NCBI GenBank assembly: GCA_030834695.1
Contig: JAUQXK010000144.1
Coordinates: 1 to 64,000, forward strand
Direction of reading: 5' to 3'
DNA: 64,000 bases
Source: Desulfobacterales bacterium
GTDB taxonomy: Bacteria > Desulfobacterota > Desulfobacteria > Desulfobacterales > SpSt-501
Below, in pieces: positions 26,694 through 50,013 of the stretch. The notes beneath the pieces were generated by a model. It was not told the DNA's origin. It saw only the letters and a program-made list of their open reading frames with translations, and did not search any database. A program made the position numbers and the translations under genes. The stretch's first letter is position 1, and every line of letters starts with the position of its first letter.

Positions 26694-27547
26694 CGCCGAA
26701 TTTTGTCGCCGAAGTATCCAGCAACCACTTCCGTAACCTTGACCGCTGCCTGCGCTTTATCGACGTTGCTGCTTCGATCGGTTGTGGCGCAGTTAAGTTC
26801 CAACTGTTCAAGGTCGAAGAGCTATTTGCTCCTGAAATCCTCGCCAAGAGCGAAAAACTTCGCCGGCGGAAGAACTGGGAACTGCCTCCGGAGTTTCTGC
26901 CTTTGCTTTCCTCCCGTTGCCGCAGCAGGGACCTTTTGTTCTCATGCACGCCGTTTTACCTGGAAGCCGTCAATGAGCTTGCTCCGTATGTCGATTTTTT
27001 CAAAATCGCTTCATATGAGCTGCTTTGGAAAGAACTTCTGCAGGCCTGCGCAGCGGCCGGAAAACCGGTAGTCCTCTCTACCGGGATGGCGACTTTAAAT
27101 GAGATCGGCAGGGCCGTTGGGACCCTGCAGACGGCGGGCTGCCGCAACCTCACCCTGCTGCATTGCGTCTCTGGATATCCGACGCCGGTCCAGGAGTGCA
27201 ATTTATCGGCCATTGAAACTCTGCGGAAGACCTTCAACTGCGCCGTAGGCTGGTCCGATCACAGCGTTTCTGCAGCAGTGATCAACCGAGCCATCCACCG
27301 CTGGGGTGCTTCGATGGTGGAGTTCCATCTTGATCTCGATGGTCACGGCGAAGAATTCGCGCCAGGGCACTGCTGGCTTCCAGAGCCGATGGCCTCCGTC
27401 ATTCAGGACGTGAAGGCGGCGATGACCTCCGACGGTTCCGGCGAAAAAGTGCCTGCACCTGCAGAGCTACCCGACCGCGACTGGCGAGCCGATCCGAGCG
27501 ATGGCCTACGTCCTTTTAAGCAAGTGAGAGTTAGCTGGAATGGCTGA
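26690..27547 (+). CDS. pseI: NeuB/PseI family nonulosonate synthase-like protein lacking the SAF domain
   Basis: 285 residues, about 60 shorter than normal NeuB/PseI. The TIM-barrel motifs are present: VKFQLFK (about 43), SCTPFYLEAVNEL, FFKIAS, STGMATLNEIGRAV (about 126-139), LLHCVSGYPTP with the metal-ligand His, VGWSDHS, and EFHLDLDG (equal to the usual KHFTLD). The C-terminal antifreeze/SAF domain, which helps close the active site of the partner subunit in the NeuB dimer, is missing. The tail instead ends GLRPFKQVRVSWNG. The expected reaction is condensation of a 6-deoxy-hexosamine with phosphoenolpyruvate. The lysine of the usual KHFTLD has become Phe, so activity may be altered. Confidence 0.8.
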   Translation: MTPNFVAEVSSNHFRNLDRCLRFIDVAASIGCGAVKFQLFKVEELFAPEILAKSEKLRRRKNWELPPEFLPLLSSRCRSRDLLFSCTPFYLEAVNELAPYVDFFKIASYELLWKELLQACAAAGKPVVLSTGMATLNEIGRAVGTLQTAGCRNLTLLHCVSGYPTPVQECNLSAIETLRKTFNCAVGWSDHSVSAAVINRAIHRWGASMVEFHLDLDGHGEEFAPGHCWLPEPMASVIQDVKAAMTSDGSGEKVPAPAELPDRDWRADPSDGLRPFKQVRVSWNG

Positions 27548-29315: not shown

Positions 29316-30418
29316 ACCGGAGGCCTGGCAAACCACGGGCAGTTATCTGCCTGGCGGCGGGAAAATCCCAGTTGGTGGTGATCCGAAAGGCCAAGGAATT
29401 GGGATTGTCCGTCATTGCGGTTGACCGAAACCCGGCCGCGCCCGGGTTTCAGTTGGCCGATGAAAGGATCATCGCCAGTACCTACGAGGCGGCTCCCATA
29501 CTATCCGAACTGAGCCGGTTCATGAACGGCTATGAGATCGTCGGAGTGGTCAACCGATCCTCGGGGCCACCGGTGGTGACCGCCGCCGATTTGAGTGAAA
29601 ACCTCGGATTGCCAGGCACGGCGCCGGAAATCGCCCGCCGAGTAATCGACAAGGAGCGATTGAAAGAGGTGTTTCGTGATAGCAGCGTGCGGGTTCCGAG
29701 AGGACAATCCATTTCCGGCCTTGCGGAACTATCCGAACCGCAGGTTGAATTTCCTTGCGTGGTGCGGCCTGCTCTTTCGCTCATCGGCAAAAGCGGCGTG
29801 CGGCTGGTCGCTGAACGAGAGACCCTCCCGCAGGCGATCCAGCAGGCACGTGAGGTTTCCTTCAACGGCCGGGTCATGGTGGAGGAATTCATCTGCGGAT
29901 ATAATCTGTCCCTTTATGGGTTCGTGCAAAACGGAGAGCTTCAGCCCCTTGTCCTCATCGACGAGTTGAATGGAAGCAGCCCGGTAGGGGATGTCAAAGG
30001 CGTTGGAATGGTCGTCCCGAGCCGCTTCCGGCACAGCGAGGAGAGCCGGCGGATCGAGGCCGCTGCTCGCCACGCGGTCGCTCGGTTAGGCATCGGAACA
30101 TCCGTTTGCTATCTGTCCTTCCGCTGTCCAACGGGCGGGGAGCCCACGCTGATCGAAATGCATCTCGACATGGGAGCCGACCTATTACTGGACGAATTGC
30201 TTCCTGCGAGCACTGGTTTCGATTTTTTCACTTATTTTATCCGAGGACTTACCGGGCAACGGCTCAATCCGGCGGCGTTCAATCCGAAGCCTGTGGCCTT
30301 ACTATATGGCGACCGGACGGAAGCGAAATGCGAACGGTCATTCCACCTGCTTCCAGCAGAAACCCGCGACGAACTCGACAGGCGGATCCTCAGCGAGGAG
30401 GAGAACATCCATGCCTAG
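29312..30418 (+). CDS. ATP-grasp domain ligase-like protein 1
   Basis: 368 residues. N-terminal Rossmann-like pre-ATP-grasp region (AVICLAAGKSQLVVIRKAKELGLSVIAVDRNP), then an ATP-grasp domain (residues about 110-320) with ATP-binding Lys-like VRPALSLIGKSGVRLV and the glycine-rich loop, and the metal-binding EMHLDMGADLL. The family forms amide or phosphate bonds using ATP. The substrate is unknown, but neighbours suggest acylation of an amino sugar. Start ATGA overlaps the previous stop. It is the first of three consecutive ATP-grasp-like genes. Confidence 0.85.
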   Translation: MNRRPGKPRAVICLAAGKSQLVVIRKAKELGLSVIAVDRNPAAPGFQLADERIIASTYEAAPILSELSRFMNGYEIVGVVNRSSGPPVVTAADLSENLGLPGTAPEIARRVIDKERLKEVFRDSSVRVPRGQSISGLAELSEPQVEFPCVVRPALSLIGKSGVRLVAERETLPQAIQQAREVSFNGRVMVEEFICGYNLSLYGFVQNGELQPLVLIDELNGSSPVGDVKGVGMVVPSRFRHSEESRRIEAAARHAVARLGIGTSVCYLSFRCPTGGEPTLIEMHLDMGADLLLDELLPASTGFDFFTYFIRGLTGQRLNPAAFNPKPVALLYGDRTEAKCERSFHLLPAETRDELDRRILSEEENIHA

Positions 30419-31388
30419 CGTATTGTTCCTGGGCTGCAACCACAATCAAACCCCCTATATCGGCGCCGCACGACGAAATGGGTTTCAGGTCATCGCCACG
30501 GATTTGAACCCTAAAGCACCCGGCGCTGGCCAGGCCGATCGTTTTCATTGTGTCGGGTATGACGATGTGGATGCGCTTTTGAAAGTCGTCCGAGAGGAAG
30601 GAATGTCTGCGGCGGACCGAATTTTCACTGCAGCCGCCCACTTTGCCTGGGAGGGCGCCGCGCAGGTCGCCCGGGCGGTAGACATCCCATTCATCAGCCC
30701 TACCAGTGTCGATGTCTGCCTGGACAAAGTCAAATTTTACGGACTGCTGGGGGAGTACGACCTTCTGCCGCCGACTGAGCTCTACCAACCGGGTTCGGCT
30801 TTCGTGCTGGACAAGTCCAAGGTTTATTACCTGAAATCCGATTACGGCAAGAGCCCACACTACTGCTTCCGTGTGGCCGGTGGAAACTGGCCCGCGATCC
30901 CTGCGATCCACGATCGGTACTTCCGGAAGCATTTCATCCTTCAGGAGGAAATCCTCGGCGCGCATTACCGGGTGGATCTCTACGGGAATCAGATGGCCGT
31001 CTTTCTGAAAATCAGAGACGATGTCTGTCTTCCGATTCCATGCCTCGGCCCAGGCCATTCTCAGATTCATGCTGCTTTGGCCGATATCGTCAGACGGTTG
31101 GGCCTTGGAACGATTATAACCAAATTCGACCTTGTCGCCAGCGTCAAGAAGGCTTTTGTAATTGACATCGGCCTGGACCCGCCCTTTCGCCTGAAATCAC
31201 TCTATGCCTGGCTGGGGCTCGATTTTGCCGATGCCTACGTCCGGCATACCCTGTTAGGAGACCTAACGGCCCTTCGCCCCTGGAGCGAGCTCTGCCGGCC
31301 GCTCTTGATAGGCGGTACGCCCGCTGACGGTTTGGGGTATTTGGACGTGACCGCATTGGCGGCCGATGCAAAAGGATCTTTGAATTGA
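30411..31388 (+). CDS. ATP-grasp domain ligase-like protein 2
   Basis: 325 residues. The ATG at 30411 is preceded by a strong GAGGAGGAG ribosome site inside the end of the previous gene (eight-base overlap); the longer frame is a shadow of that gene. The N-terminus reads SVLFLGCNHNQTPYIGAARRNGFQVIATDLNP, a Rossmann-like sugar/nucleotide fold, followed by a divergent ATP-grasp region ending in KFDLVASVKKAFVIDIGLDPP. It lacks some of the usual glycine-loop residues, so ligase activity is inferred from fold and context only. Confidence 0.7.
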   Translation: MPSVLFLGCNHNQTPYIGAARRNGFQVIATDLNPKAPGAGQADRFHCVGYDDVDALLKVVREEGMSAADRIFTAAAHFAWEGAAQVARAVDIPFISPTSVDVCLDKVKFYGLLGEYDLLPPTELYQPGSAFVLDKSKVYYLKSDYGKSPHYCFRVAGGNWPAIPAIHDRYFRKHFILQEEILGAHYRVDLYGNQMAVFLKIRDDVCLPIPCLGPGHSQIHAALADIVRRLGLGTIITKFDLVASVKKAFVIDIGLDPPFRLKSLYAWLGLDFADAYVRHTLLGDLTALRPWSELCRPLLIGGTPADGLGYLDVTALAADAKGSLN

Positions 31389-32365
31389 GTGAATTTGAAA
31401 CCACCAAGGCTACAGGAATTCGCCCGCACTTGCTGGTGTTAGGGTTGAGTTCCTCCAATATCCCACTGCTCCGGGTGGTTCGGGACAACTATGAAATCAG
31501 CCTCATCGGCAGCGACCGGTCCCCGCAGGCCGCCGGGAGGGACTACGTCGATATATTCCTGAATATCTCTCACCAGGACGCCGACGGTATCGCTAGATGC
31601 CTTTATCAGCGCGGAATCCATGCCTGCGAAATCCTGCTGGGCACTACGACGGATGCCGCGTTTGAAACGCTCGTCTTTTTAGGGGAAGCCTTTTCATCCA
31701 AGGGCTTTCCGCCTTTATCGACCATCCGGAGATGCCGCGATAAGCTTCTCCTGGATCGCTGGCTGGCGCAGAACGGATTCAACTATTTGCTTTCAGGCTC
31801 GATTTCATCTGAGATCCCCGAACGATACCCAATCGTTGTAAAAGGCATCAATACCAAGAACGGTCCGGTCCACCGCCTGCAAACGGCGGAGCAATTGGCC
31901 GCCTTCAAAACGAAGAACTCCTCCGAACTGGGAAAATGGATGGCGCAGCGAGAGGTTCGTGGCATCGAATACCGGATTGACCTATTTCCGGGTGGGTCCT
32001 TCCTCATCTTGCGTCACGAGGGTGCTGAAACCTACCGAAATCTGCTTGCGAAAGATCTTTGCACGGAAAGCGCACTTGCGCTGGAATGTGCAAATGCTTT
32101 TCATCGCAAAAGCGAGCTGGAAGGCCAGATTGTCAAATACGACGTCATTGTGGAAGGCGAGGAGACATACTTGATCGATGTCGGGTTTGACCACCCCCTA
32201 CGTTTTGAAGCCATCTGCAAAGCCATCGGAGCTTCATACTGGAAAGCCTATTTATCGTTCGGCTTGGATAATCGTAATTTGTTCTCCGATATCATAGAGG
32301 GGATCCAGGATAGTTATTACATCAAAGGCAGCGCCTGCACGACGAGGGTCGGTGATTTGCCATGA
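31385..32365 (+). CDS. ATP-grasp-like protein 3
   Basis: 326 residues starting with TTG (AAAGGAT upstream; TTGA overlap with the previous stop). N-terminal Rossmann-like region (LLVLGLSSSNIPLLRVVRDNYEISLIGSDRSP) parallels those of the two preceding proteins. The middle and end hold a shortened ATP-grasp pattern (YPIVVKGINTKNGPVH, REVRGIEYRIDLFPGGSF, KYDVIVEGEETYLIDVGFDHPLRF). The tail DVGFDHP resembles DIGLDPP of protein 2, suggesting that the two are related. Substrate unknown. Confidence 0.65.
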   Translation: MSEFETTKATGIRPHLLVLGLSSSNIPLLRVVRDNYEISLIGSDRSPQAAGRDYVDIFLNISHQDADGIARCLYQRGIHACEILLGTTTDAAFETLVFLGEAFSSKGFPPLSTIRRCRDKLLLDRWLAQNGFNYLLSGSISSEIPERYPIVVKGINTKNGPVHRLQTAEQLAAFKTKNSSELGKWMAQREVRGIEYRIDLFPGGSFLILRHEGAETYRNLLAKDLCTESALALECANAFHRKSELEGQIVKYDVIVEGEETYLIDVGFDHPLRFEAICKAIGASYWKAYLSFGLDNRNLFSDIIEGIQDSYYIKGSACTTRVGDLP

Positions 32366-34035
32366 GTGTTGTGTTCCGCAGACCTACCGCCGTAGCTGTG
32401 AGCTCGGATAGCCGTCTTTACGTGGCCGATCGTGACAGCAACGGCTTGTTTTTATTCGAGCCCGACGGCAACCTCCTACGTTTTTATTCAAGCGCTGAGT
32501 TGGGGGGCTTGAAACGGCCAAGGGGGCTGTGCTTTGACAACTCAGGCCGTCTGCTGGTTTCAGACAGCGGAAACGGTCGTATCCTGATCTTCGACGACGC
32601 GCTTCGCCTCACGGCACGCATCGACCTGAGCCGACATCGACCTTTGCTGGATTCCCTCGCGCTTGCCGATCGCACGCTTTTCTGTTCGGATCTAAACCAC
32701 CATGTGATCTATGCGATCGACCTGCGCGACGGCGCGGTGAAGCACACGCTGGGCGGAGTGGGCTCCGTCACGGGCAGGCTCCGTTCTCCCCGGGGGATTT
32801 GTGTGGTCGGCGATCGCCTGATCGTAGCTGATCGCGACAATGACCGCATCTGCGCATTTGATCTGAACTCTGGAAAAGCCCAATCGTTTCTCGGCTTCGG
32901 CCGAGGTGAGGGATTCGTCCGAAAGCCAACGGATGTCAAGTTCATCGAAAACCAACTTTACGTAAATGACAGCAATAATTACCTGATTCAAGTTTATACT
33001 CTGGAGTTTGAATTCTTGTCCCAGTTCGGCGGAAAGGGGGCAGCACTAGGGAAGTTCGATTTGGCGAGCACTTTATCCGTTCATCAGACGGCGCTCTACA
33101 TCTGCGACCGGAACAATGATCGCATTCTGCGCTACCGTCCGGAGCATGCGGCTATTGAAGCGCTCGTGGCACCGGGCTTCATCCCCGGAGTGTTGCGCAG
33201 ACCTTGCGGTGCGGCCGTCGATCAGCACGACCGAATCTATGTGGCGGATCGGGACAACGACTGCCTTCAAGTCTTCACCCCCGATGGTCGCATTCTGGAT
33301 ACGATCAGGGAAGTGAGCCGTCCGGCAGCTGTCGCCCTGACGACAGACACTCCTCCGATGCATTGGGTCGTCGAGCGCGGACGGCATCAGCTATCCCTCC
33401 TGAGGCCATCGGGTGAACGGATACAAACCATTCGTTCAGCGGCAAGAGGGGTGTGCCTCACCCATCCGCACGATATCGCCATGGATTCTCTCGGCCGACT
33501 TATTATCGCCGATTCCGGTAACCGGGCCCTCCAGCAGTTCAGTCGTGTCGGAGAACATTTGGCAACGATCGATATGGCGAAAGTGTCGAGCAACCCGTCG
33601 ATCCAAATCCGCAGCGTCTGCACGGCGCCTGACGGGAGCATATACACTGCGGATTTCGACCGGGGTGTCGTTTACTGTCTATATCCGAACGGGGCCTCAA
33701 GGTGGCTTTTGGACCTGAAGAATCGTTTCCCTGAGATAAACGTGCTTAGAGGCGTAACCGTTCATGAAAATCGGATCATTGCCTGCGTCCGCGGACCTCA
33801 CTTCATCTACATTATTTCATTCGACGGGCAGCTGATCAAAAAATTCGGTACGCGGGGTAATGGGGTAGATCAATTTCGCAATCCCGCAAAGGTTATCCGC
33901 ATGCATTGCGGAAACCATTTGGTCGTCGACAAAGAAAATGATCGACTCGTTGTATATGACGATGCCTGGACGTATCGAGGCCATTTAGGGAATCGATTAC
34001 AATCCTCGTTGGCTGCAGAATCAGGAGGCAAGTGA
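32362..34035 (+). CDS. NHL-repeat beta-propeller protein
   Basis: 557 residues, no signal peptide or membrane helix, so probably cytosolic. Many NHL repeats are visible as blades with the pattern G(I/V)xx...DxxG..(Y/L)VADxxNxR(I/V)xxF, for example RLYVADRDSNGLFLF, GRLLVSDSGNGRILIF, RLIVADRDNDRICAF, ITYVADRDNDCLQVF-like and GRLIIADSGNRALQQF, together enough for two or more propellers. Propellers of this type usually bind proteins or small ligands. Its position between ligase-like genes and a methyltransferase suggests a scaffold role in glycan assembly, or a hydrolase/lyase-type role (inference). Confidence 0.85.
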   Translation: MSVVFRRPTAVAVSSDSRLYVADRDSNGLFLFEPDGNLLRFYSSAELGGLKRPRGLCFDNSGRLLVSDSGNGRILIFDDALRLTARIDLSRHRPLLDSLALADRTLFCSDLNHHVIYAIDLRDGAVKHTLGGVGSVTGRLRSPRGICVVGDRLIVADRDNDRICAFDLNSGKAQSFLGFGRGEGFVRKPTDVKFIENQLYVNDSNNYLIQVYTLEFEFLSQFGGKGAALGKFDLASTLSVHQTALYICDRNNDRILRYRPEHAAIEALVAPGFIPGVLRRPCGAAVDQHDRIYVADRDNDCLQVFTPDGRILDTIREVSRPAAVALTTDTPPMHWVVERGRHQLSLLRPSGERIQTIRSAARGVCLTHPHDIAMDSLGRLIIADSGNRALQQFSRVGEHLATIDMAKVSSNPSIQIRSVCTAPDGSIYTADFDRGVVYCLYPNGASRWLLDLKNRFPEINVLRGVTVHENRIIACVRGPHFIYIISFDGQLIKKFGTRGNGVDQFRNPAKVIRMHCGNHLVVDKENDRLVVYDDAWTYRGHLGNRLQSSLAAESGGK

Positions 34036-34874
34036 CGAACATGAATGTCTTGCTATTCGGAGCAGGGGATGCGGGCGAAAGGGTCTTCCAGATCGTCGAC
34101 AGAAAATACAGCGTCGTATCTTTTGTGGACAATGACTCTCAGAAACATGGAACAACCGTTTGCGGCAAACCGGTTATCCCGCCCACAAAGATTCGCGAGT
34201 ACGAGTACGATTTAATCATTGTATCCAATGTGCATGGTGACGCCGTCAGAAACCAACTCGTACATGAGTTCAATGTTCCTGAATCAAAGATCAAGGATTT
34301 TTTCAACCAGGACTTGAACGATGCGCGTGCGGCTTCACTGAAAATGGTGGTCCATGAAATCTATGATGCAGGCGTAAAAGGGAACGTAGCTGAGCTAGGA
34401 GTTTACAGGGGAGACTTCGCGGTTCGAATCAATGAGTTGTTCCCGGAACGGATGTTGTATCTTTTCGACACGTTCGAAGGATTCAACGCGGCCGACGTCG
34501 AGATTGACAAGCGCAACGGGCTATCTTCGTCGCAAAAGGGAGATTTTTATTACAACGATATCGACTCTATACTCATGCGAATGCCTTTTGCAGATAAGTG
34601 CATAGTGCGGAAAGGCTTCTTCCCTGAATCGGCAGCCGATGTGAATGATTGTTTCGCTTTCGTCAGCCTCGACGTCGATCTTTACCAGCCTACCGTCGAA
34701 GGCCTTAAGTATTTCTTTACGAGGATGGTGAAAGGCGGCTACATTTTTGTGCATGATTATAACAATTCGAGATTTCAAGGAGTTAAGAAAGCTGTGCGAG
34801 AGTTTTGCCGTGAAGAAAACGTTTCATATTTCCCGCTTCACGACATATCGGGAAGCGTTGTAATCGCGAAGTGA
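34032..34874 (+). CDS. Rossmann-fold/TylF-type methyltransferase fusion
   Basis: 280 residues; GTG start overlaps the preceding stop (GTGA), with an ATG three codons on. Residues about 4-100 form a small nucleotide-binding domain (VLLFGAGDAGERVFQIVD, then FVDNDSQKHGTTVCGKPVI), like the N-terminus of PglD or of sugar-sensing domains. Residues about 105-280 are a TylF/MycF macrocin-O-methyltransferase-like domain with VAELGVYRGDFAVRI, LYLFDTFEGFN, SLDVDLYQPTVEGLKYF and KGGYIFVHDYN. The likely reaction is S-adenosylmethionine-dependent O-methylation of a sugar hydroxyl in the glycan. Confidence 0.85.
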   Translation: MTNMNVLLFGAGDAGERVFQIVDRKYSVVSFVDNDSQKHGTTVCGKPVIPPTKIREYEYDLIIVSNVHGDAVRNQLVHEFNVPESKIKDFFNQDLNDARAASLKMVVHEIYDAGVKGNVAELGVYRGDFAVRINELFPERMLYLFDTFEGFNAADVEIDKRNGLSSSQKGDFYYNDIDSILMRMPFADKCIVRKGFFPESAADVNDCFAFVSLDVDLYQPTVEGLKYFFTRMVKGGYIFVHDYNNSRFQGVKKAVREFCREENVSYFPLHDISGSVVIAK

Positions 34875-34909
34875 AGCTCTCAAAATGAACCCATTGCACG
34901 GAGCCTCAT

Positions 34910-36139
34910 GTGAAGCATGAAGAGTATTTTTGGGTCATCGGCGGAGGAATGCTGCAGATTCCATTGATCGCCGAAGTTCGCAAAGCGGGATACCAAGTCA
35001 TCGTTTCCGACCGAGACGAGACCTGCGTTTGTCGAGAGTTGGCCGATGTTTTTCTCCAAAATGACATTTTCGATATAACCGGTCATGTGGCGCGCGCCAA
35101 CGCATTTAGGGCGCAAGGGGGCAAGATCTCCGGTGTGCTTGCTGCGGGCATTGATGCCCCGGAGACCATGGCGGCGGTGGCGGAAGCGCTTGGCCTCCCG
35201 TCGGTCGAACGGTTCATCGCCCATTTAGTCAACAACAAGGATCAATTTCGAAGCGTGCTCCGTCGCCTGGGCTATCCGTCGCCGAAATTCGAAGTGATCG
35301 CAAAAGAGCAATTGTCGAATTTGGAGCCGGTCGTCGCGCGCGTCGGACTCCCGCTGATCGTCAAGAACACGGACAGCAGCGGAAGCCGGGGGACCCGAAT
35401 ATTCCATGCGAAAGATCTTCCCGGCATCCATTCAGCCGCGCTTGCGGCCATGGCCGTTTCACGCTCCAAACGAGCTCTTATCGAAGAGTATTGGGACGGT
35501 CCGGAGCAGACCGTCGAAACGCTCTTCGACTGCGAGGGCCGGTTCCATCCCTGCTTTATTACGGACCGGGTGTTCGACAAACGTCAGGGGTACGCTATCG
35601 AAACCGGATTAAGGCATCCTTCCGCCTTGGCGGAACCGGTGCAGAAGGAAATGTTTGCGCTGGCGGAGAAGGTCGCTCGTGATTTAGGGGTCACAATCGG
35701 TGCCGCCAAGTACGACATGATCCTCACGAGTGCCGGTCCCAGAATCATCGAAATGACCGTGCGCCTTTCGGGAGGTTTTGACTGCCAATACTTGGTGCCG
35801 GCCGCAACCGGCAAGAACGTGCTCCGGGCTGCCATCCAAACGGCGCTCGGCCGGCCTTTCGATGCTTCGCTCCTGACCGATGTCAAGCACCGGGTCGGTC
35901 TCAGCGAATCGCTCTGGCCGGCTCCAGGGAGAATCGAATCCATCTCCGGAATCGAAAAGGCAAAAACCGTCCCTGGATTTGAAGCGGTATTTTTCCGCTA
36001 CCGGGTAGGCGATGTCGTAGATCCTTACACGGATTGCACGAAACGTGTTTGCTTCATCATCACGACCGGTCGGGATGAACTCGAAGCGCGTCAAGCGATG
36101 GACACCATAAAAGGTCTTATTCGGATTCAGACAGTATGA
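34910..36139 (+). CDS. ATP-grasp ligase-like protein 4
   Basis: 409 residues with GTG start (GGAG upstream). Clear ATP-grasp protein of the carbamoyl-phosphate synthase/PurK style: N-terminal WVIGGGMLQIPLIAEVRKAGYQVIVSDRDE, ATP-grasp domain with PLIVKNTDSSGSRGTR (P-loop-like, about 145-160), LIEEYWDGPEQTVETL, IEMTVRLSGGFDCQYL and a C-terminal beta-rich domain. It is the most complete of the four ATP-grasp proteins in the block. The substrate is not shown by sequence. Its stop overlaps the next gene's ATG by four bases. Confidence 0.9.
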   Translation: MKHEEYFWVIGGGMLQIPLIAEVRKAGYQVIVSDRDETCVCRELADVFLQNDIFDITGHVARANAFRAQGGKISGVLAAGIDAPETMAAVAEALGLPSVERFIAHLVNNKDQFRSVLRRLGYPSPKFEVIAKEQLSNLEPVVARVGLPLIVKNTDSSGSRGTRIFHAKDLPGIHSAALAAMAVSRSKRALIEEYWDGPEQTVETLFDCEGRFHPCFITDRVFDKRQGYAIETGLRHPSALAEPVQKEMFALAEKVARDLGVTIGAAKYDMILTSAGPRIIEMTVRLSGGFDCQYLVPAATGKNVLRAAIQTALGRPFDASLLTDVKHRVGLSESLWPAPGRIESISGIEKAKTVPGFEAVFFRYRVGDVVDPYTDCTKRVCFIITTGRDELEARQAMDTIKGLIRIQTV

Positions 36140-38107: not shown

Positions 38108-41100
38108 ATGGACATCCTATTTTGGCTGGAACCAATGGCCGAGTTGCATTCACCGTTCTTGATGAAAACCTGGTATACATGGTTTTCGTGTATCGATCAG
38201 CAATTGGCCCTGAAGCTGACGAACTATCGGTCCGCCATCATCGCGTTTGAAAGCATGAGATTTTATGAAGGTCACGGAAACTTTAAAAATTCCGTGATGT
38301 TGAGCCACTCGGATCTAAGATCGAATTGGTCCGAAAAGGGAAGTCTTTCTTTGAAATATGAAAAGGATCTGGCGCATAGCAATGAGATCGAACTTGTTGA
38401 TTTAATCCGTAGACGAACGGAAGGACTGTCTCCGGATGTTGTTATATTGCTGAGCGAGGCTCCGTGGTTGAGACGCGCGTTTCCCGGCGCACTATTCATA
38501 AACATCGAAGTCTCCTGGATTCATCGAGCTCCTTTTCCGACCCTCTACTCGCTGGACCCGGTCGGCAAAGGGAAAGGCAGGGTGCTGGCGCAATACGCCG
38601 ATGAACTTCTATCGAACTTTGAGGTGAACGACAACGAGAGAAACATAGTAAACCAGATATGTGGCCCCGCAATAGGGAAATTAAAAGCGGGCCAGAGAGC
38701 AAGAGATGCGATTGGCGCCATAAGACACCGCTTCGAACGGGTCGTCCTGCTGCCGATATCCGGAAGGTATGTCACGGACGGAGAGACGCCGGTATTTGCG
38801 GCACTTGAATGGTACATGGAGCGCAGAGCGGATGACCGCACATTCTATGTGATCACCCAACACCCCTTGGATAAAGCACTGAGCGATTCCGAGGCCGCAT
38901 ATTTGAAAGTAAAATTTAGTAATCTTGCACTGGACCTGCAAGAAATCGGTTCCCAATCCATCGTTCCGCACGTCGATGCGGTCATCGGGGATTTCAGCAG
39001 TGTTGCCAACCAAGTTCTATTTTACAACACAGAGATGATTTCGATCCTGCATGAACTCCCCTACGTGGATGGGAGCTTCGGTATACGAAACCCGTTGTGC
39101 CGGCTGATCGCTGACGCCAGCACGGAAAACAAGGAAAAGATATTATGCTGGCTGTTAACCAAATATGACACCAAAAAGGAAAACATCTTTAACAACGGGA
39201 AATGGTTCGCAACGTATCTGGAAGCCATGAAGCATTACAAGGAGACCGATTCGATTCCAAAATTCTACCAGGCGGTCGAGCCGCCCGGCTCCAAAGCGAT
39301 CAGTCGATCCATTCGGCACTCCAAACCCTGCCCGGGCAACCAAGCCCGGATAATGAATAAGGGCGCAGCAGATATCAAGGCTATTGCTTTTTATTTGCCG
39401 CAATACCATCCGATCCCGGAAAACGATACCTGGTGGGGCAAGGGCTTTACGGAGTGGACTAACGTAAGTAAAGCCAAACCATTATTCGAAGGCCACTACC
39501 AGCCGCATCATCCCGCCGAACTCGGGTTTTACGATCTGCGGTTGGCCGAAATTCGGAAAACCCAAGCCGATCTGGCCAAGGCTTATGGGGTTTACGGCTT
39601 TTGCTATTATCACTACTGGTTTGGCGGCAAGCTATTGCTGGAGCGGCCACTTCAAGAAATTTTAAAATCGCAAAAACCCGATTTTCCGTTTTGCCTCTGC
39701 TGGGCGAACGAAAACTGGACACGCACATGGGACGGAGGGGATCAGCATATCCTGATTGCCCAGAATTACAGCGAAGACGATGACCTCCAGCATATTCGGT
39801 ACCTTTCAAGGATTTTCCGGGACCGGCGCTACATCCGTATTCATGACAAGCCCCTTTTCCTTGTTTACAGAGCCAATCTCTTGCCCAACCCGATGCGAAC
39901 AGCCGTCCTATGGCGAGAGGAAGCGAAACGGCTAGGAGTCGGCGAGATCTACCTTTGCCGGGTTGAAAGCTTTGCGGACGAACACACCGATCCTGCTGCG
40001 ATCGGCTTTGATGCAGCGGTCGAATTTCAACCGGACTGGACGCTTTTATCCGAGGATCTGCGCGATAGACGGGTTCCGAACCTGAGAGCGTATCACTATG
40101 AAAAGGTAGTTGACCGAATGCTCGCCAAGCCGCTTCCGGCCTACAAGCGGTTTCAATGCGTTACGCCTTCATGGGACAACACGCCAAGACGTAACGGCAA
40201 TTCTTTGTTCTTTACGGAAGCTTCACCGGCCCACTACGAAAGGTGGCTCACCAGCGCCTGCAGCAAGTTGAGTGCTACGAAGGCAGAAGAACACCTTGTC
40301 TTCATCAACGCTTGGAATGAATGGGGAGAAGGCAATCACCTAGAACCCGACGAAAAATTCGGCTATGGTTATCTCGAGTCCACTCGAAGAGCTCTCGAAA
40401 CTTCAAAGAGTAACCTGCGGAAAGACGCCGAGGCCTTTCACGAGAGGATCCGGTCCGGTATAACGCCGAACGAAAGCCCGCAGGATGCCTTGGTCCGTCT
40501 GCTGGAGCTGGTTGAATTTCATCCGGATTATGCCCCTGCCTATTTGGATTTGGGCGCGCTCTTCAAACAAGCCGGCAACACGCAGAATGCCTTGGCGGCT
40601 TACGAGAAGGCCTGCTCCCTTGAACCTTTGAATTCCAGTTTTCTGAGATGCCTGGCAGACTTCAATTTCGTTGAACTGAAGCGGGTAGAAGATGCGGGAG
40701 CTCTCTACGAAAAGATCCTATCCCTGAATCCAGAAGACGAAGATGCCCTTCTCATGCTGGGGAATCTTTCAACGATTCAGCACCGATTTGAAAAGGCGCT
40801 CCAGGCTTTTCTCAAGGTTCTTGTGCTAAACCCCGTGCATGAGTTTGCCGGCAGGATGTTTGATGAACTGGTAGTTAAAGTTAAGAACCGATCGATGGTG
40901 TCGGCCCCGGCCCAACTGCTGGAGGAGGCTCGGGTGCTCGCTCAAAGGGGAAGAAGCGATCAGGCCATCTGCACGATAGAGAAGCTCCTCAGCGCCTTTC
41001 CGGATCACGCGGAGGCTCACAACGACCTCGGTTGTCTCTTTTATCAAGCGGCGGATATGGAGAAGGCCTTGGCTCACTACGAAAGGGCGGTGGCGCTCGA

Positions 41101-44100
41101 TCGCGCGAATACCACCTATCGGAAGAACCTGGCGGACTACTATTTTATCGAAGGGGGCGAACTGGATAAGGCCGTCAAGCTCTATCTCGAGGTCATCAGC
41201 GCAAACCCCAAAGATACAGAAGCATTGTTCGCTTTAGGCGTCATCAGCGAAACACTTGGCAAGTGCGGCGATGCCGTTGCCTTCTACCGAATGGTGCTAT
41301 CCGCGGAGCCCGACCATGCTGCCGCGCGCGAACGTCTGGAATTGGCGTCCCGAGGCAACGAATCAATCCATACTGCGCCGGATATAAGCCTCACACCGTC
41401 AACCCCCACAAGCGTCAGCATCATCATCGCGGTGTTCAACAAGCTTGAGTACACAAGAAAATGTATTGAAGCAATTATCCGCCACGCCCGCTCCGTTCCT
41501 TGTGAAATAATCGTCATCGATAACGCTTCCAGTGATGGGACCCCTGAATACCTGAGTTCGCTTTCCGAGACGATCAAGCTAATCCGCAACCCAACCAACG
41601 TCGGTTTCACGCTGGCTTGCAATCAAGGCGCCCGGGTCGCAACCGGCGAATACATTCTTTTCTTGAACAATGATACGGAGCCGGCAGCCGGATGGCTGGA
41701 CCATCTGCTTGACCTGGCAGAGGCCGATTCCAAGATCGGCATCGTCGGCTCCAAACTCGTATTCCCCGACGGCAAACTCCAAGAAGCCGGAGGGACTATT
41801 TTCAGTGACGGGACCGGATGGAATTACGGCCGCCACGGCGACCCCGACGATCCTTCGTTCAATTATGTGCGGGAAGTCGATTACGTGTCCGGTGCATCGC
41901 TTCTGGTTCGGCATCGGTTGCTCAAGCAGCTGAACTACTTCGATGAGCGCTATTCCCCGGGCTACTATGAGGATACCGATCTTTGCTTCGGAGCCAGGTT
42001 TCTCGGGTACAAAGTCATGTTCTGTCCCTTTTCCGTTGTTGTGCATCATGAGGGGGTATCGAGCGGCACCGATCTGAAGCAGGGGATGAAAAAGTACCAG
42101 GCCATCAACCGGGAAAAATTCAAAGCCAAGTGGGAAAAGGAACTGCGCAATCAATACCTTGCCGACTCCAAAAATGTGATCCAGGCCAGCGAGCGAAACA
42201 CTTCCGGAAACATCCTGATCATCGATCCCTTTCTGCCCATGTTCGATCGTGCGTCAGGATCTCTACGGCTCTTCACCATCATATCGCTTTTGCGAAAGCA
42301 GGGCTACCATATCACGTTCATCGCCCGGAACGGTCAAGAGCAGGAAGGCTACTCCGAAGCCCTTCGCAAAATGGGAGTTGAAGTTTATGCGACCGACAGC
42401 GATATGCTCAGACAGATGGGGTATGCTGTCTACGCCCGTCCATTCGATCTCAAACGAATCTTGGAGGCTCGGCCGTACCAATTAGCCATTCTCTCATTCT
42501 ACGTCATCGCCGAGCAATATCTGTCTATCATCCGCAGCGCCTCCCCCGAGACGAGAATTCTGATCGATACCGTGGATATTCACTTCGTCAGAGAAATGCG
42601 CCAAGCCGAGCTCAGCGGAGATCCGGCAGCCTTGAAGCGCACTTCCGCGACAAAGAAACGGGAACTGTCCATTTATTCGCAGGCGGATGGCGTGATAACC
42701 GTGACGGAACAGGATTGGGACCATATCCGGGCATTTCTGTCTGGCAAGCACCATTTCGTCATTCCAAACATCCATCCAGCAGACGTTTCGCCGATTGATC
42801 CAAGCGGGCGAAAGGGACTCCTGTTCGTCGGCAATTTCAATCATCAGCCCAACATCGATGCCATGCTGTATTTCGTCGCCGAGATTTTTCCGAACGTACA
42901 GCGCATCCTGCCCGAGATGACCCTCACCATCGTCGGAAACAATCCGCCTGAAACGGTTCTTGCTTTAAAGAGCAGCAACGTATTTGTAACGGGGTATGTG
43001 CCTTCGACCGAGCCCTATCTGAAAACATCCCGTGTATCGATTGCACCGCTTCGCTATGGGGCCGGCATGAAAGGAAAGATCGGTGAGGCAATGGCACACG
43101 GGCTGCCCGTGGTAACCTCATCCATCGGAGCTGAGGGCATGGGTTTGGTCTCCGGTCAAAACGCTCTTATTGCGGACTCGGCCCAAAAATTCGCGGACCA
43201 TATTGTCTCGCTGTGCACGAACGACGAGACATGGCGGTCTATCGCGTCCGCTGGGCGAGCGCTTGTTTTGGACAACTATTCACCAGAGAAAGTCGGCCAG
43301 ATAATTGCGGAGATGATAAAACAGGTTGCACTAATTCCACCGGAAAAGGGTATTTCTGATAAACACGCCATTCAGCCCAGCCAAAACAAGACCGTAACAA
43401 AAGACTTTACCTCGATTGTCATTCTTACCTTTAACCAGCTCAAATACACAAAGGAATGCGTTCAAAGCATTCAACAGAATACACCCGAGCCGCATGAGAT
43501 TATCTTTATCGACAACGGTTCAAGCGATGGTACCGTTAAGTGGCTGAGACGGCTTGTCGGCCGGAACACGAATTATAAACTGATCGAAAACGACAGCAAT
43601 CTCGGTTTTTCGAAAGGCTGTAACCAGGGAATCGATTCATCCGCAGGTGATCGCGTCGTTCTTATCAACAACGATGTCGTGGTAACCAAAGACTGGCTTT
43701 CCGGTCTGCTCGAATGCCTTCATAGTGCCGACGATATAGGTATCGTAGGTCCCATGACCAACGCGATCAGCGGCCCTCAGAAGGTCCCCTTTGTGGCTTA
43801 CTCCTCCGTCGACGGCCTGGCGGAATATTCCCAAGAATTCCGGGTAAGGAATCGACACCGAAAAATACCCACCCGGCGCGTCGTCGGTTTCTGCATGCTT
43901 TTCAAGCGGCAGCTCATAGAGGAAATCGGTATCCTGGACGAGAGCTTCGGATCGGGCAATTTCGAGGACGACGATTTTTGTCTGCGTGCCTTGCTGGCAG
44001 GCTACCGGAACATGATTGCCGGAGACGTGTTCATCCACCATTACGGCAGCAGAACATTTATCGGCAACCGAATGGACTATGGCTGCTCCTTGACCGGCAA

Positions 44101-46249
44101 TCGTAAAATTTTCATGCAAAAATGGAATAGGGGAGATGTGGCCCGACGGTTTGGCGGAAAGCTTGTCGTCGAGGACACCATCGCTAAGGCCGATGATCAT
44201 ATCAATAGAGGAGAGATCGAAAAGGCAACGGCATGCATTCTCTCCACGTTGAAACAGTTTCCCTTTGAGCGCAGACTCTACACCAGAATCGCCGAGATGC
44301 TTATCGCCGTAAAGCGTTATCAGGACGCGGTCGACATACTGTATGCACTGCGCAAGGACGTCTCGAACTCGTTGCCGTCGGCGCTGTTGGGTTACTGTGA
44401 AGAAGCCTTGGGTCACAACGAAACTGCCCAGGAATATGCGAAGCGCGCCTTGGCCATCGATCCGCTGGCTACATTGCCGATGAATGTCTTGGGGGTGCTT
44501 GCCTTCAAGAAAGGCGATACCGAGGCCGCAGAGGGTTGGTTCAGAAAAGCGATCGAGGCAGGGCCGGGCTTTGGGGAGTCATACACGAACTTGGGTTCTT
44601 TGAAATGGGCTGTCGGAGAAACGGAAGAAGCCATCAGGCTTTTCGAGAGGGGCTTTATACTATCGCCAACCATCGACGATGTGGCGACGGCGTATCATAC
44701 GGCGATTGTTGAAACGAAGTCATTCGAAAAGGCCGAAGCGGTGTTTCGCGAAGCGAGAGCCTTGCATCCTAATCATAAACGTCTATCCTTTTTGATGATA
44801 GCCTTGCTGCTGCAACAAGAAAAGTATGAATCGGCCATGTCTGAAATCGAAAAGACCATGCTTCAGTTCGGAATCGATGACGGCATTCTATCCGCCGGCC
44901 TCGAAGTTCGAAAACGAATCGGTGCATTGCAGGTCGACAAGTCGAAATGCAAAATGGCCACGCTTTCCTTATGCATGATTGTCAAGAACGAGGAGCCCCA
45001 TCTGGCCAAATGCCTTATGAGCGTCAAGCCGGTCGTCGACGAAATGATCGTTGTGGATACGGGCTCCAGCGATCGATCCAAAGACATAGCCGCTGCATTG
45101 GGGGCAACGGTTTTCGATTATCCCTGGACGAACGATTTCTCCGAAGCCAGAAATTTTTCATTGTTGAAAGCGTCCGGAGACTGGATCCTCGTCCTGGATG
45201 CCGATGAAGTCATTTCAAGACTGGACCACGGCCTGCTGGAAAAAATTGCCAAAAAGCGGCCGGCAAAGCACCGTGCCTACATTCTGGTCACTCGAAACTA
45301 CACGAACAATCCAGGGTCTCGAGGGTGGGTCGCCAATGAGGGCCGGTATATCGAAGAGGAAGCCGGAGCGGGCTGGGTGCCGAGTCCCAAGGTCCGGCTG
45401 TTTGTCAATGACCAGCGAATCCGCTTTGTGAATCCGGTGCATGAGTTGGTTGAACCGACACTGACCAAGTTGGGAATTCCTATCAGGACGTGTGACGTCC
45501 CGGTGCATCATTACGGACGATTGAATCAGGAAAAGTTGATGGCAAAGGGAAAGGAATACTACCGGCTGGGGATCGCCAAAATCGACCAGACCCAGGGGGA
45601 CTGCAACGCGCTCAGTGAACTGGCCATCCAGGCATCTGAAATAGGGGAGTACGAAGAGGCGGTAGGGGTCTGGCAGAAAGTGATCGAGCGTCAGCCCAAT
45701 GACGCTGTTGCGCATATGAATCTTGGCTTTGCCTTTTTAATGATGAGACAACACGCCAAAGCTGCAGAATTTTCGAAGAAGGCCATGGCGATCGATCCGA
45801 AACTGCGGGAGGCGGCCTTGAACTATTCGGCGGCCGAAATGTTTGCAGGCGACATCCACACTGCGATCTCTACCCTTGAGCATTTATTGGAGCGTCATGC
45901 AGACTACCCGCCTGCCATGGGGCGACTGGCCGCTGCATATATCGTGTCCGGCCGGAAAGCGGATGGCCTTCGCTGTCTCGAAAAACTGAATTCAAGAGGG
46001 TTTGACTGCGCCGGCGCTTGCGAAGAACAAGCGCGGGCATTCCTTTCGGAGTCTAATCATGAAGCGGCGGCCCTCCTTTTAGCGGCCGCCATCGAAAAGG
46101 GGCTCGACAACGGCCGCATGAGTCATTTGCTGGCGGAATGCCGGTCGAGGATCGATGGCCGCCTTCCCATCTACGAACCACCGACCCTTTCTGCTGCCAA
46201 CTCGACGCTGGAATCCAGGGAGCCGGTCGAGAATAGGGCAGGGGTTTGA
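38108..46249 (+). CDS. Giant multi-domain glycosyltransferase/TPR protein (2,713 residues)
   Basis: No signal peptide. Domains in order (residues approximate): 1-400 a GT-B-like region with [13 protein letters not shown]; 415-775 a WbsX-type/GH99-like domain ([57 protein letters not shown]); 790-1090 TPR; 1100-1335 GT-A family 2 transferase ([25 protein letters not shown]); 1365-1740 GT-B transferase ([42 protein letters not shown]); 1765-2015 second GT2 ([25 protein letters not shown]); 2030-2255 TPR; 2280-2475 third GT2 ([18 protein letters not shown]); 2495-2675 TPR. Such fusions normally exist as separate enzymes. It would build several linkages of a surface or flagellar glycan. Confidence 0.9.
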   Translation: [2713 protein letters not shown]

Positions 46250-46254
46250 TAAGA

Positions 46255-48258
46255 ATGATGACCGAAACCGCAGAGTCCGTCATTCAGCGCGCCGATACGC
46301 TTCATTTTCAAGGCCGTTGCGATGACGCGGTCGGAATATTGGCGGATTTCATCGCGTGTGCACCCAATCCTGATGCAGCCATTATCCGTGTGGCCGAACT
46401 CCTGATTGACTCGGAACGGCATGAACGAGCCATGGAATTTCTGAACCGGATGCCTGCGGTTGAAGCCGATTCGCGAATTGCCTATTTGTATGGGGTGTGC
46501 CATCAAGCCTTGGGGAATGTTGATGCCGCTGACAGAATCGCGGACCGGATTCTGGTTCAGAAGGGCAGGGGTGCATTGGCACTCGTTCTCAAAGCACGGG
46601 TTGCCACTTTTCATGGCAACAACAACGAGGTCGAAGGCCTGCTCGCGGAGGCGGTTGAACGCGACCCGAGGTGTGGAATCGCTTGGCACGATTATGCCTG
46701 TCTGCGAAAGCGGCAGGGCGATACCGCGGCATGTGTTGAACTATTCACAAAGGCCTTCGCGTGCGCACCGGAGTCACGTGAAATCGTTAGAGCGTTTCAT
46801 GAAAGCAGCCTGGCTTTCCAGAGACTGGCTGAAGCGGAAACCGCTTTTCGAGAAGCGGTTTCCTGCCGAAGGATGGATCGGCGCCTTCGATATTTGTTGA
46901 TCGATCTCCTTCTGCGGCAAAACAAGTATGCGGAAGCCATGGCGGCCGTCGAGTCGGCCATCGTCGATTTCGGGGTCGATCAGGGCATTGTCGGCGCTGC
47001 GCTCAAAATCAGAGAGAAACTCGGACCCATGAGCGTCCCATTGGCGGCGAGGCCAGGCGGCAGCGTATCCCTGTGCATCATCACCAAAAATGAGAGAAGC
47101 CTTCTTGCTTGCTGCCTGGCCAGCGCGAAACCGGTCGTAGATGAAATCATCGTCGTGGACACCGGCTCTACCGATGAAACCAAAGACCTCGCCGTCGTAT
47201 TCGGTGCAAAGCTTTTTGATTTTGCATGGGTGAATGATTTTTCCAAAGCCAGGAATTTTTCGCTTTCCAAGGCTTCCGGGGATTGGATTCTGGTGCTGGA
47301 TGCGGACGAGACCCTATCGAGCAAAGATTATGAGGACTTCCGGCGCTTGCTGGAAGCATCTCAAGGCCGACCCGCTGCTTTCCGCATGCAGACGCGCAAC
47401 TATTCGAATCTGGTCAATACCGTCGGGTTCCGGCCGAACAGAGGCGAATACCCGGACGAAGCGGGGCTGGGCTGGTATCCGAGCGATAAAGTTCGTTTGT
47501 TTCCAAACGACTCCCGCATTCATTTTGATTACCCCGTTCACGAACTGGTCGAACCCAGCCTGAACAATTTGAAAATACCCATCCGTGAATGCGCGACCGC
47601 CATACATCACTTCGGAGTGTTGAATAACGCCCATGCGCTGCAAAAAACATCCGCCTATCAGAAACTCGGACGGAAAAAGATAAAGAATTTTAAGGATTCC
47701 ACCGCCCTGAAAGAAGCCGCCATCCAATCAGCTCGGGTCGGACGAAATGCGGAGTCCCTCGATCTCTGGAGGCGATTCCTGCTACGACACCCACGTTCAG
47801 CCGAAGCTTATTTGAACATCGGAGCCGTCTGCGCGAACATGGGGCGTCATGCGGAGGCGGTTACCAATGCCCGAAGAGCAATGGAGCTGGATCCAGAGCT
47901 GAAAGAGGCAGGGTTCAATCTGGCATTTGCGCTGCTGATGCAGGGCAAGGCGGAGGAGGCCCAAAAGGTATTGGAAGAGAGCACGGAGGAACACCCGAAC
48001 TACGCCGCGGCTCAATTTCTGCTGTGCGTTGCCTATGCCTGTCGGCAAGAGAGGTCGTCGGCGGAAAACATCTTCAAACAGGTTAGGGCTCTTCCCATCG
48101 GAAACTATATCGGCGAGTCATTTCTTGATATCGCCAGGCAGTTTTTGAAAGCTTCCCGCAGAGACTATGCCCGCCATACTCTTGAGGCCGCCTCGATTTT
48201 CGGTTGTTCGAATCCCGCGATGGAGAAACTGCTCGAAGATTGTGGCGCGACCACCTGA
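46255..48258 (+). CDS. TPR-GT2-TPR glycosyltransferase, paralogue of the C-terminus of the giant protein
   Basis: 667 residues from the ATG at 46255 (a TTG at 46246 would overlap the previous stop). TPR repeats occupy about 1-265, a GT2 catalytic domain about 270-465 ([39 protein letters not shown]), and further TPR 470-660. It matches the last third of the giant protein nearly segment by segment: both have VDTGSxDxxKDxA, NDFSxARNFSL and [14 protein letters not shown]. It is a tandem duplicate of that module. Function in the same glycan pathway is likely. Its 3' end converges with flaF. Confidence 0.9.
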   Translation: [667 protein letters not shown]

Positions 48259-48312: not shown

Positions 48313-48717
48313 TCACACCAGAGCCTTATCGGCTGGAGTCGTTTTCGGCCTGCTGCGCAATCCGGCAGCAATGTTGTGGTTGATATTGATGAGGATGGTG
48401 AGTTTTTCAGGAGCGGGGTAGGCAATCGTTTCCATCGTGCGCCGATCGATGAAGACGCTCAGACGGAGCAAGTCAACCTTCAGGGCATCGGGCAGTGGGT
48501 TCCCAGGTTTCTCCAACTCAGCCTGAAAAATGGTCCAGATCCGTTGGTTGTAATTCAGTGCAGCCTTGAGACGGGTATCCCGGTCCTTTGCGGTCCAATG
48601 GTCCTGGCAGTCTTTCAGCTTGAGTGCGGCTTTGGTGAGGACTTGGGCCTCGACATCCCGTCCGCTCATCGTGGACTTGTTGACGCTGTCATATGCTTTC
48701 AGTGCGGCCTGATACAC
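48313..48717 (-). CDS. flaF: Flagellar biosynthesis regulator FlaF
   Basis: 134 residues, small and helical. It begins MYQAALKAYDSVNKS, like FlaF (PF07309) proteins, and keeps ALKLKDCQ, AALNYNQRIWTIFQAEL and LPDALKVDLLRLSVFIDRRTMETI. In alphaproteobacteria FlaF is needed for flagellin translation and pairs with FlbT. It overlaps the end of flbT by 29 bases, and the order fliC-flbT-flaF matches alphaproteobacterial loci. Confidence 0.9.
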   Translation of the reverse strand: MYQAALKAYDSVNKSTMSGRDVEAQVLTKAALKLKDCQDHWTAKDRDTRLKAALNYNQRIWTIFQAELEKPGNPLPDALKVDLLRLSVFIDRRTMETIAYPAPEKLTILININHNIAAGLRSRPKTTPADKALV

Positions 48718-49099
48718 GCTTGATAGTCTCCTGTTCGTATTCGATCAATTTCTTCGTCAGTTTCAATGCCGGATAGTAACGCCGTTGCAGGATGTGTTCG
48801 TTGATGGAGTCGATCAGACCGACTGTGCCCGGAGCGGCATGGACCAAATCCTTCACGAGGTCCCAGTATATCTCATGATACATGGCCAGGTTGCTTTCAT
48901 CGATGTACATCAGCTGAATCGCGTAGTAGATGCGGCGGCAGGGCGAGGTCGCTTTTTCTTCGGTCAAGATGTCTTTCTGCCGGAGGATAGGGGTTTTGTT
49001 TTCTATAACCAGATCGCAGCTCGAAGGGCCGCCATTGGTCAGAACCGCTCCTCCGATAATCATGCGTTCGCCGGACTTCAGAGTGATTTTCAAGGCCAT
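48689..49099 (-). CDS. flbT: Flagellar biosynthesis repressor FlbT
   Basis: 136 residues: ALKITLKSGERMIIGGAVLTNG is the typical FlbT N-terminus, followed by a helical part (RRIYYAIQLMYID, YYPALKLTKKLIEYEQE). In Caulobacter FlbT binds the 5' leader of flagellin mRNA and slows its translation until hooks are complete. It lies just downstream of fliC on the same strand, with a terminator hairpin between them, and is unusual outside alphaproteobacteria. Confidence 0.92.
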   Translation of the reverse strand: MALKITLKSGERMIIGGAVLTNGGPSSCDLVIENKTPILRQKDILTEEKATSPCRRIYYAIQLMYIDESNLAMYHEIYWDLVKDLVHAAPGTVGLIDSINEHILQRRYYPALKLTKKLIEYEQETIKRVSGRTESI

Positions 49100-49182: not shown

Positions 49183-50013
49183 TTAGAACAATCTCAGGAC
49201 TGCCTGGGCCGCCTGCGAAGCGAGGCTCAACGATGTCGTACCCAGACTCTGTCGGGTCTGGAGCATGAGCATGTTGGCGCCCTCCTCGTTCATGTCGGCG
49301 TTGGTCAGTGAGGCCGCCCCATCCTTGAGGACGTTGATCATCCCCTGGGTGAACTCCTGCCGGGCGGTGATGATGCTCAGGTTGTTGGCCAGTTTGCTCG
49401 ATTGGGTCCGCAGGGTGTTTTTCGCATCATCGAGCTCAACAATTGCGGTATCGATCGAGCTGGCAACGACGCTGGTGCCTGTTACCCAGCCTGTTCCTTC
49501 GCTGATGCTAAGACCGGTTGTGCTGGCATCGAAGCCCGTGATTCCAAGTTTCGAATCCCCCAGTTCGTCGAACTTGACCGTGAGAGAGACGGATTCGCCG
49601 CCGAGCAGATTGACGCCTTTGTAACCCGAATCAGCGGCCATTTCATCGATCTGGGTCCGGACGGTATTGAACTGAGCCATCAGCGAGGTAGCGGTCGTCG
49701 AATCGGCGGATAGAGCGGACGTCGCCAGGGACTTGGCCGCTGCGATCAGGGTGTTGATCGATGAGATGCCGGCATCCCCCGCTTTGATTGTCTGGACCGC
49801 CTCGGACATCTCGTCCTTACGAGCGGCCAAGTCGCTGGAGCGTTGTTCGTGGTTCACCGCGGTAAAATAAGCCACGGGGTCGTCCAAAGCGCTGTTGACC
49901 TTCTTGCCGGAGGCCAGTCGCTTCTGGGTGGTCTCCAACATGCTGTTGGTGTTCTGAAGGCTGACCAGGTTGGCCCGCATGCCTGAGGTTAGGGTGATGG
50001 GTTGCATTGCCAT
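49183..50013 (-). CDS. fliC: Flagellin
   Basis: 276 residues, short. The N-terminal D0/D1 helices begin MAMQPITLTSGMRANLVSLQ and include SGKKVNSALDDPVAYF (the S-G-K-R/K-V-N-S segment). The C-terminal D1/D0 helices hold NNLSIITARQEFTQGMINVLKDGA and end SLASQAAQAVLRLF. The central variable part (about residues 130-185) is small and Ser/Thr/Gly-rich, with many candidate O-glycosylation sites. The next starts, M1 and M3, lie within seven bases; AGGAG is nearby. A FliA promoter and a leader hairpin lie upstream. Confidence 0.95.
   Translation of the reverse strand: MAMQPITLTSGMRANLVSLQNTNSMLETTQKRLASGKKVNSALDDPVAYFTAVNHEQRSSDLAARKDEMSEAVQTIKAGDAGISSINTLIAAAKSLATSALSADSTTATSLMAQFNTVRTQIDEMAADSGYKGVNLLGGESVSLTVKFDELGDSKLGITGFDASTTGLSISEGTGWVTGTSVVASSIDTAIVELDDAKNTLRTQSSKLANNLSIITARQEFTQGMINVLKDGAASLTNADMNEEGANMLMLQTRQSLGTTSLSLASQAAQAVLRLF

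Follow-up and report, generated by a model that had tools for sequence, protein, structure and literature searches.

GmaR transfers GlcNAc to flagellin, and SunS and ThuS have a layout of a GT-A domain plus a TPR-like region; GmaR and SunS are both polypeptide transferases. In Caulobacter crescentus, the TPR domain of FlmG binds flagellin (PMC7591256). In a 2026 paper, the combination of GT2 and TPR is taken as a mark of flagellin transferases, and the TPR of Maf-1 is cited as conferring acceptor specificity (PMC13317340). In the open-access literature, an incomplete body of work in which absence carries little weight, we found no description of a fused multi-transferase, TPR+WbsX or megasynthase-like flagellin glycosyltransferase. 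Here, we describe a giant multidomain protein from a Desulfobacterales bacterium that, judging from its sequence and predicted structures, very probably has a role in flagellin glycosylation.

Results

A single frame encodes four transferases and three TPR blocks

The window, as we call the 64,000-nucleotide stretch of DNA analyzed here, contains no ambiguous bases (N) and carries on its plus strand a reading frame at 38108–46249 that starts with ATG and runs for 2,713 codons without interruption. The ORF is real, lying far beyond chance, and encodes a protein (the giant) of 2,713 aa and 304.8 kDa, in agreement with the roughly 300 kDa expected in a preliminary description of this DNA. That the giant is one frame, as claimed there, is borne out by long single-frame relatives in many independent genomes. 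From the N terminus, the giant comprises an orphan region (residues 1–418), a WbsX domain, TPR1, GT2a, a GT-B domain, GT2b, TPR2, GT2c and TPR3, all on the plus strand. Pfam searches detected WbsX, three Glycos_transf_2 stretches, Glyco_trans_1_4 (GT-B) at residues 1569–1705 and TPR families in three blocks, the limits of which were set in this analysis to 776–1090 (TPR1; 40433–41377), 2011–2275 (TPR2) and 2481–2713 (TPR3). GT2a (residues 1091–1375; 41378–42232; PF00535, E = 5.9e-28) and the GT4-type GT-B domain (1376–1755; 42233–43372; PF13692, E = 3.1e-26) follow TPR1, and each transferase domain was also confirmed singly when Pfam was applied domain by domain. The three TPR blocks and the fusion of several transferases in one polypeptide, both noted previously, are therefore upheld, the transferases being three GT2 domains and one GT-B by profile. 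The giant has no transmembrane stretch, its best 19-residue Kyte-Doolittle mean being 1.6.

Residues 1–418 (38108–39361) have no match in Pfam (E ≤ 1), NCBIfam, the PDB, 297 genomes of the phylum or any of the collected loci, and the AlphaFold model over this region lies mostly below pLDDT 50. The preliminary description had called it GT-B-like, a label that stays an impression because the region has neither a detectable homologue nor a confident model.

The WbsX domain resembles GH99 endo-alpha-mannosidases

The WbsX domain (residues 419–775; 39362–40432) matches PF14307 at residues 426–758 with E = 8.9e-141 and 469.8 bits, compared with a gathering cut-off of 25.1. When a profile built from 20 WbsX domains was compared with the PDB, GH99 endo-alpha-mannosidases were the sole matches; the match to 4acy (E = 0.0016) is weak, yet it is collinear in two stretches, including NEWxEG...EP. 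In addition, a Foldseek search with the predicted WbsX model, taken from an AlphaFold model that is confident over its WbsX half alone, returned GH99 structures as all of its best 22 matches, with E values from 3.5e-10. All 20 WbsX domains keep Glu738 and Glu741 unchanged; these residues align to the NEWxEG of 4acy and have the same spacing as E333 and E336, the catalytic pair of the Bacteroides xylanisolvens GH99 enzyme. PDB titles among the fold matches name both E333 and E336 as mutated positions, and from the spacing and the alignment the NEWxE pair would correspond to these two residues. The likeness to the GH99 endo-alpha-mannosidases (PDB 4ad0, 4ad1 and 6zfn) thus extends to the fold and the NEWxEG...EP catalytic motif; it differs in that identity is only about 14–17% and that WbsX sits inside a predicted cytoplasmic transferase chain.

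Because it has the GH99 barrel fold and both catalytic glutamates, WbsX need not be a transferase. The domain itself is present as previously described, but the transferase role assigned to it is not supported, since GH99 endo-mannosidases have this fold and the same conserved glutamates; it may cleave or transglycosylate rather than use a sugar nucleotide. The GH99-type fold and active-site motif also put in question the name "glycosyltransferase" for the widespread WbsX domain. Separately, in the Thauera loci L012–L014, genes for WbsX proteins of 1,244–1,290 aa lie some 2.5 kb from the gene for flagellin, and WbsX may therefore be part of flagellin loci in other organisms as well.

The tail places a GmaR-like GT2 domain between TPR blocks

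The C-terminal tail consists of GT2b (residues 1756–2010; 43373–44137; PF00535, E = 6.5e-27), with intact DNGSSDG, NND and EDDDFC motifs; TPR2 (44138–44932), delineated by alignment and the predicted tail model; GT2c (2276–2480; 44933–45547; Pfam E = 1.7e-18), the proposed flagellin-priming transferase, with DTGSSD, WTNDFSEARN and DADE motifs; and TPR3 (45548–46246), the proposed acceptor-binding block, supported by Pfam, the predicted model and the fold search. Alignment of relatives shows that GT2c is the most conserved domain, its DTGSxD, WxxxFxxARN and DADE motifs being invariant or nearly so; a few variants escape the patterns of the motif scan. The GT2b motifs, intact in the giant, are gone in many relatives according to the alignment and the scan. 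Loci L005, L006, L049 and others have a GT2b directly before TPR2 that lacks the catalytic motifs while those of GT2c are kept; the motif-less GT2b is a possible pseudoenzyme.

Among solved chains, GT2c is closest to GmaR (E = 9.7e-31) and SunS (E = 2.9e-13). The predicted model of the tail (pLDDT 86.8, pTM 0.78) has SunS/ThuS structures as its best five fold matches. GT2c scores 53.6 against a cut-off of 350 for the SunS family TIGR04195 and so is not a member, the likeness being one of fold only. Like the TPR+GT2 flagellin glycosyltransferases (FGTs), the giant has intact GT2 motifs, TPRs in the same chain and a flagellin locus. In a side observation, the chain at L133:6127–11556 contains tandem TPR2-GT2c copies, as though the giant and its neighboring paralogue had merged.

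The giant lies between pseudaminate genes and a flagellin gene

Immediately 3′ of the giant is a paralogue of TPR-GT2-TPR layout (46246–48258, plus strand; at most 670 aa, probably starting at the ATG at 46255 or 46258) that is 37% identical to giant residues 2021–2680 and probably primes other sites or other flagellin forms. It is followed by two convergent genes on the minus strand, flbT (48689–49099; PF07378, E = 4e-41), encoding a flagellin regulator, and the gene for a 276-aa flagellin (49183–50013; PF00669, E = 2.2e-13), the likely acceptor, and then by chemotaxis-type and flagellar genes. The previously suggested link to flagellin is thus strengthened both by this convergent pair and by the match of GT2c to GmaR.

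Upstream of the giant are pseudaminate pathway genes (24434–29315, plus strand). They encode PseB (24434–25540; TIGR03589, 489.4 bits, cut-off 407.75), PseC (25512–26693; TIGR03588, 449.1 bits, cut-off 423.5), a NeuB/PseI-type nonulosonate synthase that scores below the equivalog cut-offs (26690–27547) and a CMP-type cytidylyltransferase fused to a PseG-like hydrolase domain (27540–29315; 141.2 bits for the PseG-like domain, cut-off 153.55). Between these genes and the giant lie genes for ATP-grasp ligases, a TylF-type methyltransferase, a mannitol-dehydrogenase-type enzyme and an inositol-monophosphatase-type enzyme. Several ATP-grasp-type genes sit inside the pseudaminate cluster, at 29312–36139, including a ligase with an L-amino-acid-ligase C-terminal domain found by profile search (34910–36139, plus strand); these enzymes may attach an amino acid to the sugar. 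None of the giant's domains comes from a known nonulosonate transferase family, and the pseudaminate link is therefore one of neighborhood only. A Maf-type PF01973 domain was not found in the giant's own genome.

GC3 within the island at 24434–48258 is 0.55–0.67, compared with 0.72–0.82 in the neighboring housekeeping and flagellar genes, and the island may have been acquired horizontally. The giant's segments are alike in GC3 (0.57–0.65), so that no mosaic is visible within the gene.

Relatives share the tail and differ in the front

At E ≤ 1e-80, the GT2b-TPR2-GT2c-TPR3 block turned up in 20 of 297 genomes of the phylum, some as partial matches; with the whole giant as query, 25 of 147 genomes of the class gave matches at E ≤ 1e-60, some via other domains. 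In the relatives the block forms the C-terminal end of chains of 1,240–3,614 aa and aligns at 36–50% identity. Of the 28 distinct relatives whose downstream sequence extends for 1.4 kb or more, 21 have a convergent flbT and/or flagellin gene downstream, at a distance of 240–5,770 nt, as does the window itself; L001, L100, L134, L135, L136, L139 and L154 have neither in the available downstream sequence. Flagellin or flbT is present in 4 of the 94 collected loci that lack a strong GT2c match.

Each type of join in the giant occurs within a single frame elsewhere, namely TPR1-GT2 (L003, L131), GT2-GTB-GT2 (L009) and WbsX-GT2a-GTB (L135). In L135 (genome G071), the giant's module types are divided among three consecutive genes. 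The preliminary description held that the fused layout is unusual and that such enzymes are normally separate genes; split versions indeed exist (G071, G003, G004, G142 and G054), but many genera of this lineage have fused giants.

The fronts vary even within the genus. In a GT2c-TPR3 tree, the window tail clusters with those of the same-genus genomes G001 and G003, though support for this join is low (0.24); the window paralogue clusters with the G001 paralogue (support 0.98), and the tail and paralogue types are well separated. The window tail shares 46% identity with that of G001 across 926 residues, whereas the two fronts, despite the shared genus, have only superfamily-level similarity (25% in GT2). 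Fronts of other relatives carry methyltransferase, radical-SAM, B12-binding, GT9 and GT4 domains. Examples are L129:2393–10867, with radical-SAM, B12-binding and methyltransferase domains fused to the GT tail, and L130:3546–14387, with radical-SAM and GT9 so fused. The 3,377-aa chain at L003:7397–17527, which adjoins flbT and flagellin, combines the tail and TPRs with a GT-B domain, five GT2 stretches, a methyltransferase and a PF01973 domain of Maf type (36.3 bits, cut-off 34.6); the fusion of this last domain to the tail is a direct link to flagellin glycosylation. Since the giant adjoins a flagellin gene and its relatives have the same tail with swapped front enzymes, it probably builds a strain-specific sugar chain on the flagellum.

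Discussion

We consider it probable that the giant is a cytoplasmic modular flagellin O-glycosyltransferase, with a constant docking-and-priming tail and an exchangeable, glycan-specific front, a reading that does not require strict colinearity. We infer its substrate, linkage, sugars, order of action and single-chain channeling along the following lines. The TPR blocks of the tail (TPR2-GT2c-TPR3, preceded by GT2b) would dock flagellin in the cytoplasm, and GT2c would move the first sugar onto a flagellin Ser/Thr, as GmaR modifies flagellin and SunS modifies a peptide. The front (GT2a, GT-B, GT2b, the GH99-like barrel and the orphan region) would then extend or edit the glycan on docked flagellin before export, with sugar donors supplied by central metabolism and by the pseudaminate-type cluster next to the gene. 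The earlier idea of TPR units as docking sites is plausible by analogy with FlmG, whose TPR binds flagellin, with the acceptor specificity of the Maf-1 TPR and with the SunS/ThuS structures that head the fold search. The accompanying idea of an assembly line for an ordered oligosaccharide is compatible with the data but unproven, and we regard an ordered line in a single chain as a tentative reading, somewhat short of an even chance. A hydrolase family such as GH99 suits an elongation line poorly, and this counts against our best explanation, as do the seven relatives with neither flbT nor flagellin in the available downstream sequence and the purely neighborhood-based link to pseudaminate.

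The fused domains could instead act on flagellin independently of one another, fusion merely fixing their stoichiometry. This distributive mode, which we think on balance unlikely, would fit the occurrence of the module types as separate neighboring genes in L135/G071, L099, L100, L136 and L139 and the retention of the gene in many relatives with an inactive-looking GT2b; the recurrence of chains of 1,240–3,614 residues across many genera speaks against it, as it suggests an advantage of fusion. It is improbable that the front half makes surface polysaccharide or O-antigen and that the tail alone concerns flagellin. Modules of the GT2a-GT-B and WbsX kinds often occur in genomes and contexts lacking a flagellin-linked tail, but here they form one chain with such a tail, relatives with other fronts occupy the same flbT-flagellin site and the giant has no membrane segment.

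The position of GmaR as the nearest solved chain to GT2c raises the alternative that the giant, like GmaR, is bifunctional and serves first to regulate flagellar transcription and only secondarily in glycosylation; however, the similarity is limited to the GT2 domain, and a regulator would need neither the giant's size nor its array, making this a very slight prospect. Misassembly or a frame artifact joining separate genes likewise seems highly unlikely from the sequence: the genome is a draft of 149 contigs and relatives contain split forms, but the giant is a single clean frame, and the four-domain tail, TPR1-GT2, WbsX-GT2a-GTB and GT2-GTB-GT2 are each one frame in other genomes.

A modular flagellin O-glycosyltransferase might, more speculatively, exemplify a lineage-wide class of programmable, single-chain megasynthases for protein glycosylation, in which a constant tail docks and primes flagellin, the set of front modules, and perhaps their order, encodes the glycan, and transferase, methyltransferase, radical-SAM and hydrolase-type modules evolve by swapping at a fixed locus. 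We think this extension doubtful. If our main reading is right, whether domain order in one polypeptide encodes glycan structure would become testable by comparing the flagellin glycans of relatives with the same tail and different fronts, and the giant may be a cytoplasmic O-glycosylation machine complete in itself, open to engineering through the exchange of modules.

What is new here is how large the protein is, how many activities are fused in it and the pattern of a swapped front on a constant tail; the parts, and the principle of a TPR plus a transferase acting on flagellin, were already known. Like the giant, FlmG (PMC7591256) combines TPR and transferase in one chain, has a pseudaminate link and belongs to a genome with flbT and without Maf. 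However, FlmG has 596 aa and a single GT-B after an N-terminal TPR, whereas the giant has four transferases, with TPR blocks flanking a GT-A (GT2) core; its tail is thus GT2, and its GT-B lies upstream rather than at the C terminus. The predicted Clostridium FGTs share with the giant a GT2 domain with TPR repeats and a flagellar glycosylation locus, but, in the accessible part of that paper, no multi-transferase megaprotein is described (PMC13317340). The Maf flagellin nonulosonate transferases (PF01973) serve the same process and are connected to the tail through the L003 fusion, none being found in the giant's own genome. GmaR (PDB 22ao), the best solved relative of GT2c, is a single GT2 enzyme and anti-repressor without an array, and the SunS/ThuS peptide S-glycosyltransferases (PDB 7msn and 7msk), the best fold matches of the tail, have a bacteriocin as substrate. 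Finally, the chondroitin polymerase K4CP (PDB 2z86) resembles the giant in having more than one GT2 domain per chain but is a two-sugar polymerase with neither TPR nor protein acceptor.
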